Source of the DNA: Trueperaceae bacterium
GTDB lineage: Bacteria > Deinococcota > Deinococci > Deinococcales > Trueperaceae
Direction: 5' to 3'
Length of the DNA: 59,730 bases
Assembly: GCA_020354625.1 (NCBI GenBank)
Contig: CP070651.1
Coordinates: forward strand, 1,196,350 to 1,256,079
Made by a program: the position numbers and the translations under genes
In this document: positions 57,242 to 58,853 of the stretch, piece after piece
Layout: each line of letters opens with the position of its first letter
Numbering within the stretch: the stretch's first letter is position 1
Notes under the pieces: generated by a model
Told to the model about the DNA's origin: nothing
The model's input: only the letters and a program-made list of their open reading frames with translations
The model's database searches: none

Positions 57242-57688
57242 TCAAAAATGCTCGGTATCCAACCATAGTGTGACGGGTCCCTCGTTGAGTAGTTCGATCT
57301 CCATAAGAGCACCAAACCTCCCTTGTGAGACGTCCAGGCCACTCTTTTTGAGGTTGTCGATAAAGGCCAGGTAGAGTTCCTCCGCACTCTCCGGTTTTGC
57401 AGCGTTTGTGAAGCTGGGACGGTTTCCACCACGGACATCACCATAGAGCGTAAATTGACTCACAACCAGCAAGCTTCCCCCAGCATCATCGACGCTGAGA
57501 TTCATCTTCCCGGCCTGATCGCTAAAGATACGCAGTTTTCTGGTTTTGGCGGCCAGTTTTGCAGCGGTTTCCGTCGTGTCTTGGTGCGTGACACCGAGGA
57601 GGATCAGAAGGCCTTTTTCAATCGCTCCAACCTGCTCGCCTTCGACTCGTACCCTCGCCCAGGCCACGCGTTGGATCAGTGCGCGCAT
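57242..57688 (-). CDS. dtd: D-aminoacyl-tRNA deacylase
   Basis: The 148-residue enzyme hydrolyses D-amino acids from tRNA. It has MRALIQRVAWARVRVEGEQV at the start, the active-site SQFTLYGDVRGGNRPSF, and the cis Gly-Pro motif NEGPVTLWLDT near the end (usually NDGPVT). ATG 57688 fits the family; a TTG three codons earlier is a possible alternative. A TATCGT sequence lies 8 bases before the ATG. Confidence 0.96.
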   Translation of the reverse strand: MRALIQRVAWARVRVEGEQVGAIEKGLLILLGVTHQDTTETAAKLAAKTRKLRIFSDQAGKMNLSVDDAGGSLLVVSQFTLYGDVRGGNRPSFTNAAKPESAEELYLAFIDNLKKSGLDVSQGRFGALMEIELLNEGPVTLWLDTEHF

Positions 57689-57722
57689 CGCCGCCAACGA
57701 TAGATTTTGTGCTTAACAGGCT

Positions 57723-58337
57723 TCAAAAGAGGTTTCCTTGCTGGGCCGTGTCGATTACGAGTTGACCGGATTTGGGTTTCAGGGCGGAGAGGGCCGACTT
57801 GAGTTCTTTCATATCCTGCCACATCTGCCATTTTGGGCTACCTTGCTCCCGGCTGGGATTTCTGAGCAGATAGGCTGGGTGAAAGAGTGGAAAAATGTCG
57901 ATGCCGTGCCAACGGTACCACTGACCGTGGGTCTTGGTGATGCCCTCGCGGGTCTGAAGAAAATATTGGGTGGGGACGTTTCCTAACGGGGCGATGATTT
58001 GAGGGCGGATGAGCCGGATCTGTTCAAGTAGAACGCCCTCGCTAACCGCAATCTCTTCGGGTTTCGGGTTCCTGTTTCCGGGGGGGCGGAATTTGACGAT
58101 GTTGGTAATGTAAACGTCAAATCTGTCGATCGAGACGCTCTCTAAGATCCGGTCGAGCAATTGGCCTGCCCTGCCTACAAAAGGGCGTCCGGAAAGATCC
58201 TCTTCTTCGCCAGGAGCCTCGCCAATCAGCATCAGATCGGCGTCGGCATTGCCTTCGCCAAAAACGAGGTTATCGCTGAGCTCGTGGAGTACATCGGGTT
58301 TCTGTTTTGCTTGCTGCTCCAGTTGCTCTAAAGTCAC
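57723..58337 (-). CDS. Family-4 uracil-DNA glycosylase without iron-sulfur cysteines
   Basis: The 204-residue protein aligns end to end with Thermus UDG of family 4 (205 residues), which removes uracil from DNA. It has motif 1 GEAPGEEED (39-47), RPFVGRAGQLLDRIL, IVKFRPPGNRNPKPEEIA and motif HPAYLLRNPSR (153-163). In Thermus four Cys hold a 4Fe-4S cluster; here the positions read Lys13, Val16, Phe83 and Ser99, and the whole protein has no Cys. GTG 58337 has a GAGGAG Shine-Dalgarno and gives the family start MTLEQL; the frame is open upstream but unlike UDG. It is followed by dtd on the same strand. Confidence 0.93.
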   Translation of the reverse strand: MTLEQLEQQAKQKPDVLHELSDNLVFGEGNADADLMLIGEAPGEEEDLSGRPFVGRAGQLLDRILESVSIDRFDVYITNIVKFRPPGNRNPKPEEIAVSEGVLLEQIRLIRPQIIAPLGNVPTQYFLQTREGITKTHGQWYRWHGIDIFPLFHPAYLLRNPSREQGSPKWQMWQDMKELKSALSALKPKSGQLVIDTAQQGNLF

Positions 58338-58484
58338 CAATTTTCTCCTCAAAACATCACTAAGGGGCTTGAGTCGGTGACTGGTCTCTTCCGTCGTTGG
58401 AGAAATGCGAGCGTAGAGATTCCGCCAGACACCTCCAACGGTCATAATCGATGGTGGAGTGCCCTCACTCGAAAGAGCGATCCT

Positions 58485-58853
58485 TTATCCGAGCGGTGGC
58501 CGGCTACTACGAATCTCCCGCCAGATTTTCCGCTCCAGACCGATCATAAGAAAGAAGTTCTCGAGAGCATTTTCTTGTCCCTTGATGTCGGTGTGCATCT
58601 CTTGGGAGGTACCCGTCACGAACGGAAGCTCTTGGTAGCGACGCAGTGCCTCTTTGGCGACATCGCTCGGGCTTTGCGTCTCGGCAACTTCCGATAGGTA
58701 AGCATAGATGTGACGCCTTGCCTCTGCATGCTTTCGAAAAGCTTCAGGGTTGTCTGTCTCAGAGGAACGTAGAAGATCTTGTCTGGCGATGCGCCGGTAA
58801 TGCTTCAGTCCTCTTATGATCTCCTCCGAACTGAGAACAACCTTGACCTCCAT
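58485..58853 (-). CDS. Unrecognised protein, helical, 122 residues
   Basis: I do not recognise this family. The protein begins MEVKVVLSSEEIIRGLKHYR and is largely helical and charged, with a His/Arg-rich middle (AFRKHAEARRHIYAYLSEVA) and a hydrophobic C-terminal helix (ALENFFLMIGLERKIWREI). It has no signal peptide, membrane segment or Cys. ATG 58853 has an AAGGAG Shine-Dalgarno 5 bases away, which supports expression; an upstream in-frame start is less likely. It is upstream of the uracil-DNA glycosylase gene on the same strand after a 147-base gap, in which I see only a weak CTCCA/TGGAG pairing. Confidence 0.65.
   Translation of the reverse strand: MEVKVVLSSEEIIRGLKHYRRIARQDLLRSSETDNPEAFRKHAEARRHIYAYLSEVAETQSPSDVAKEALRRYQELPFVTGTSQEMHTDIKGQENALENFFLMIGLERKIWREIRSSRPPLG

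Follow-up and report, generated by a model that had tools for sequence, protein, structure and literature searches.

Our analysis suggests that the family-4 uracil-DNA glycosylase (UDG) of the Trueperaceae is a vertically inherited Deinococcota enzyme that very probably lost its [4Fe-4S] cluster in the ancestor of the family and is still at work. The protein studied is encoded in a 59,730-nucleotide stretch of DNA (here, the window) from a 4.29-Mb genome in a single contig. Its closest named relatives by UDG protein are Truepera and other Trueperaceae (65 to 77% identity), and the genome is therefore assigned to the Trueperaceae, Deinococcota. The relevant features of the window are as follows.

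57723 to 58337, minus strand: family-4 UDG (UDGa) gene, GTG start, 204 amino acids, no Cys.
58345 to 58350, minus strand: likely Shine-Dalgarno sequence GAGGAG, 7 nt 5' of the GTG start, read from the sequence.
58287 to 58307, minus strand: residues 11 to 17, the former N-terminal ligand loop by alignment, CxxC in relatives and QKPDV here.
58275 to 58277, minus strand: Ser21, Arg in clustered relatives by alignment.
58209 to 58223, minus strand: motif A GEAPG, residues 39 to 43.
58041 to 58091, minus strand: residues 83 to 99, a loop that is pinned by the cluster in relatives; Phe83 and Ser99 replace the third and fourth ligands, and Asn88 lies within it.
57849 to 57881, minus strand: motif B HPAYLLRNPSR, residues 153 to 163, with the catalytic His153.
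58485 to 58850, minus strand: conserved upstream neighbor of unassigned function, which also adjoins clustered UDGs.
57242 to 57697, minus strand: dtd (D-aminoacyl-tRNA deacylase), the downstream neighbor.

The GTG codon at 58337, which the original prediction took as the start, is right, judging from the spacing of the GAGGAG sequence and from the relatives. Because two of these (G015 and G002) show a stop codon one codon ahead of the same V-T-L start, an alternative 240-amino-acid open reading frame from an upstream ATG, whose 36 additional residues are unmatched in relatives, is unlikely. The 204-residue translation contains no Cys at all, as had been claimed.

The protein passes the TIGR00758 (family-4 UDG) profile with 181.9 bits against a cutoff of 125.3. 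Its AlphaFold model, made from an alignment of 49 sequences, has a pLDDT of 92.6 and a pTM of 0.91, with confidence dipping in the C-terminal tail and in the former ligand loop (residues 11 to 20), which averages 74. The nearest solved relative is TthUDGa of Thermus thermophilus (PDB 1ui0/1ui1), which belongs to the same family and phylum and is 59% identical over the aligned part; the predicted fold superimposes on 1ui0 with TM scores of 0.91/0.96 and a root mean square deviation of 1.1 Å. Motif A GEAPG and the His-Pro motif B HPAYLLR are present together with the TthUDGa pocket residues. What sets the two proteins apart is the four-Cys [4Fe-4S] cluster of TthUDGa, an N-terminal loop that is one residue shorter in the window protein, and Ser in place of Arg at position 21. 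Typical family-4 UDGs carry a [4Fe-4S] cluster on four Cys residues, of which the window protein has none; by its sequence and descent it is thus a cluster-free variant of family 4 and an atypical member. The family-4 identity originally proposed is borne out by profile, fold, tree, and synteny, and the protein lies outside any separately named cluster-free UDG family; placement inside such a family had been listed with the proposal as contrary evidence.

Assignment to other groups of the superfamily was rejected. UdgX has a similar fold, but it is characterized by motif A GEQPG, a KRRIH loop, and a retained cluster (PMC10359453). The window protein has GEAPG, lacks the KRRIH loop, and scores 126.3 bits with the NCBIfam UdgX profile TIGR03914, under the cutoff of 189.95. 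A family-5 UDGb would have a GLAPG-type motif A, which contains no Glu, and a family-5 motif B; motif A of the window protein is GEAPG, and the family-5 gene of this genome is a separate one (L002, GLAPGAHG). BdiUng of Bradyrhizobium, another member of the superfamily, has a family-4-like fold, but its motif A is GQDPA and a classical motif B is lacking, whereas GEAPG and HPAYLLR are found here.

The four ligand positions were examined by alignment. Phe83 and Ser99 align unambiguously to the third and fourth ligands. For the N-terminal pair, MAFFT places Gln12 and Asp15 opposite the first two Cys residues, whereas a raw count gives Lys13 and Val16; there is no ligand either way. Of the four replacements named in the original prediction, Phe83 and Ser99 therefore stand, as does the absence of ligands, while Lys13 and Val16 hold by the raw count and not by MAFFT. 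Across the Trueperaceae, the four positions are occupied by Q/E/K/A, D/P/A/E, F/Y/R/H, and S/G, respectively. The N-terminal pair is replaced differently in different members, position 83 is Phe in 18, Tyr in 9, Arg in 5, and His in 1, and 32 of the 33 sequences carry Ser at position 99.

The loss of all four cluster ligands, first claimed for the single protein, is a fixed trait of the family that recurs in other phyla. We searched 39 Trueperaceae genomes and found a family-4 gene in 34, every one of which lacks all four ligands. The other five are drafts of one genus (72 to 89% complete), two further genomes of which have the gene. Among homologues from other Deinococcota families, all four Cys residues are present in 68 of 69 (16/16 and 52/53). 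The sole exception (L242, from the near-complete genome G091) is a Thermus-like family-4 UDG split over two frames by a frameshift or a sequencing error. The contrast (all four ligands absent in 34/34, present in 68/69) is far beyond chance.

The locus is shared with clustered relatives. The upstream neighbor and dtd border the UDG gene in most Trueperaceae loci; in the other families, the clustered UDG is bordered by the upstream neighbor in f2 to f5 and by dtd in f2 and f5. Because these conserved neighbors mark the same locus, the cluster appears to have been lost in place. A careful UDG tree, built without the ligand columns, places the Deinococcota UDGs in a single clade (support, 100/99), and the ligand-poor Balneolota and Alphaproteobacteria sequences sit apart from each other and from the Trueperaceae in a broader tree. 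Horizontal transfer from another ligand-poor group is ruled out by tree and synteny. Monophyly of the Trueperaceae is recovered in 48% of bootstrap trees of this short protein and is not rejected (p-AU, 0.47). Given this weak support, two losses are possible, although a single loss at the base of the Trueperaceae is the simplest reading. One fast-evolving cluster-free UDG (L113, genome G024; 50% identity) occupies the same locus in a genome whose genus-mates carry normal copies.

Besides the four ligands, the sharpest differences between the Trueperaceae and their sister families are at position 21 (Ser in the former, Arg in 16/16 sisters) and position 102 (Trp in the sisters). All 74 clustered family-4 sequences carry Arg at position 21; in each ligand-poor lineage it is replaced, by Ser in the Trueperaceae, Gly or Asn in Balneolota, and Ala in Alphaproteobacteria. 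This Arg may give support to the cluster or to its loop. The two are not strictly linked, since UdgX has a cluster without this Arg, and co-loss in about three independent lineages is too few for statistics. Nine Balneolota sequences (L053, L058, L062, L064, L066, L068, and L071 to L073) have neither the ligands (His83 and Ser99 are found instead) nor Arg21, and represent a separate loss. Four sequences from Alphaproteobacteria and one phage (L069 and L187 to L189) have at most two scattered Cys residues, Trp at the third ligand position, and no Arg21; most of the alphaproteobacterial proteins combine Trp83 with Pro82. As in the Trueperaceae, the catalytic motifs are retained in these groups. 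The extent of loss in both was judged from few sequences.

The catalytic residues are intact. The pocket and catalytic residues of TthUDGa are E41, E47, F54, N80, N89, and H155 (PMC5387724); their window equivalents, E40, E46, F53, N79, N88, and H153, are each invariant in the Trueperaceae, in agreement with the intact catalytic motifs originally noted. The ratio dN/dS is 0.03 to 0.11 for close pairs by two methods (several saturated pairs gave no estimate), which points to strong purifying selection. Because a single other UDG-superfamily gene, that of the family-5 UDGb, exists in the genome, the window protein is probably its main uracil glycosylase. In family-4 UDGs the cluster has been described as stabilizing a loop and the protein, with no role in catalysis, and Cys-to-Ser mutants of the Pyrococcus furiosus and Archaeoglobus fulgidus enzymes keep about 60% of their activity (PMC5295032). 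Since such mutants lose just about 40% (PMC5295032), an active UDG without a cluster is plausible; the cluster may have been lost with compensating packing. By comparison with TthUDGa, Asn79 and Phe53 would hold the uracil, Asn88 would position the water, and His153 would stabilize the leaving uracil. In place of the cluster, ordinary packing by Phe/Tyr83, Ser99, and the shorter, Pro-containing N-terminal loop would hold loop 83-99 and the N-terminal arm, and Arg21 would have become dispensable once the cluster was gone. A broader proposal, in which the Trueperaceae pin the DNA-contacting loop without metal, residue 21 changed from Arg to Ser in correlation with this, and Balneolota and Alphaproteobacteria each underwent such a co-loss independently, has in our view an even chance of being correct.

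Several other readings of the missing ligands can be weighed against this evidence. An error of sequencing or assembly in the four ligand codons, a concern already attached to the original prediction, has a negligible probability, as 34 separate genomes concur and do so with differing replacement residues. That variety also bears on the idea that the protein binds another metal or cluster through non-Cys ligands. His, Asp, and Glu can in principle bind metals, and Asp or Glu occurs in the N-terminal loop of some members, but the four positions show no conserved ligand set across the Trueperaceae, which makes this reading very improbable. It is somewhat less remote, yet still improbable, that the protein no longer excises uracil and instead binds DNA or acts on another base. 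The cofactor that stabilizes a DNA-contacting loop is gone, and residue 137 (57927 to 57929), which is always Arg in clustered family-4 UDGs, is His in the window protein; 11 of 33 Trueperaceae have His at this position. Against such a change of role stand the invariant pocket and catalytic residues, the strong purifying selection, and the genome itself, in which no family-1 UDG was found that could serve as a substitute.

The loss might also be adaptive under stress from oxygen, radiation, or iron, in that an enzyme with no oxidizable cluster would stay active where Fe-S enzymes fail. Truepera is radiation resistant; the trait is fixed across the family that includes it, and the ligands are absent in at least two more lineages. 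Nevertheless, MutY (cluster motif CIPKRPVCSECPLTSRC), endonuclease III (cluster motif CNARTPQCSTCRLSTLC), and the family-5 UDGb of the same genome all keep their four cluster Cys residues, so that this genome does not avoid clusters in DNA repair enzymes, and their general loss from such enzymes can be rejected. (PF10576, a 17-position model of the EndoIII/MutY cluster, missed G000; the motifs are evident by eye.) Aerobic sister families within Deinococcota also have clustered family-4 UDGs. The adaptation to oxygen or iron stress suggested at the outset is therefore unsupported, and we consider adaptive loss unlikely; neutral loss with compensated stability is an equally good fit.

There is debate over the [4Fe-4S] clusters in DNA glycosylases, which may be structural staples or may act through DNA as redox sensors. 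Within this phylum, orthologues at the same locus either have or lack the cluster but share fold and pocket, which amounts to a natural experiment on the need for it, and the co-lost Arg is a candidate residue for coupling the cluster to the protein. If the cluster-free enzymes are as active as the clustered ones, the family-4 cluster would be a replaceable structural staple, unneeded for a redox or charge-transport search for damage by this family. Another DNA glycosylase family with some cluster-free members is MutY, to go by the citation of Trasvina-Arenas 2016 in PMC5295032; MutY has an HhH fold, unlike UDG, and the copy in this genome retains the cluster motif. We found no description of cluster-free family-4 UDGs in the literature searched, in which subscription journals were poorly covered, and the observation is probably new. 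For annotation, family-4 membership should not imply an iron-sulfur protein.

The product of 58485 to 58850, which is conserved and matches nothing in Pfam, NCBIfam, or PHROG, has its gene immediately upstream of that for the UDG throughout Deinococcota, including Thermus-like genomes, and is a possible functional partner of the UDG. Two Trueperaceae (genomes G005 and G004) have an additional UdgX-like protein that retains Cys residues (L122 and L123, respectively). Besides the normal gene set, genome G017 encodes a Cys-free degenerate UDG-like protein with motif A GHSAS (L124), and a protein from another family (L125) resembles it but has Cys.
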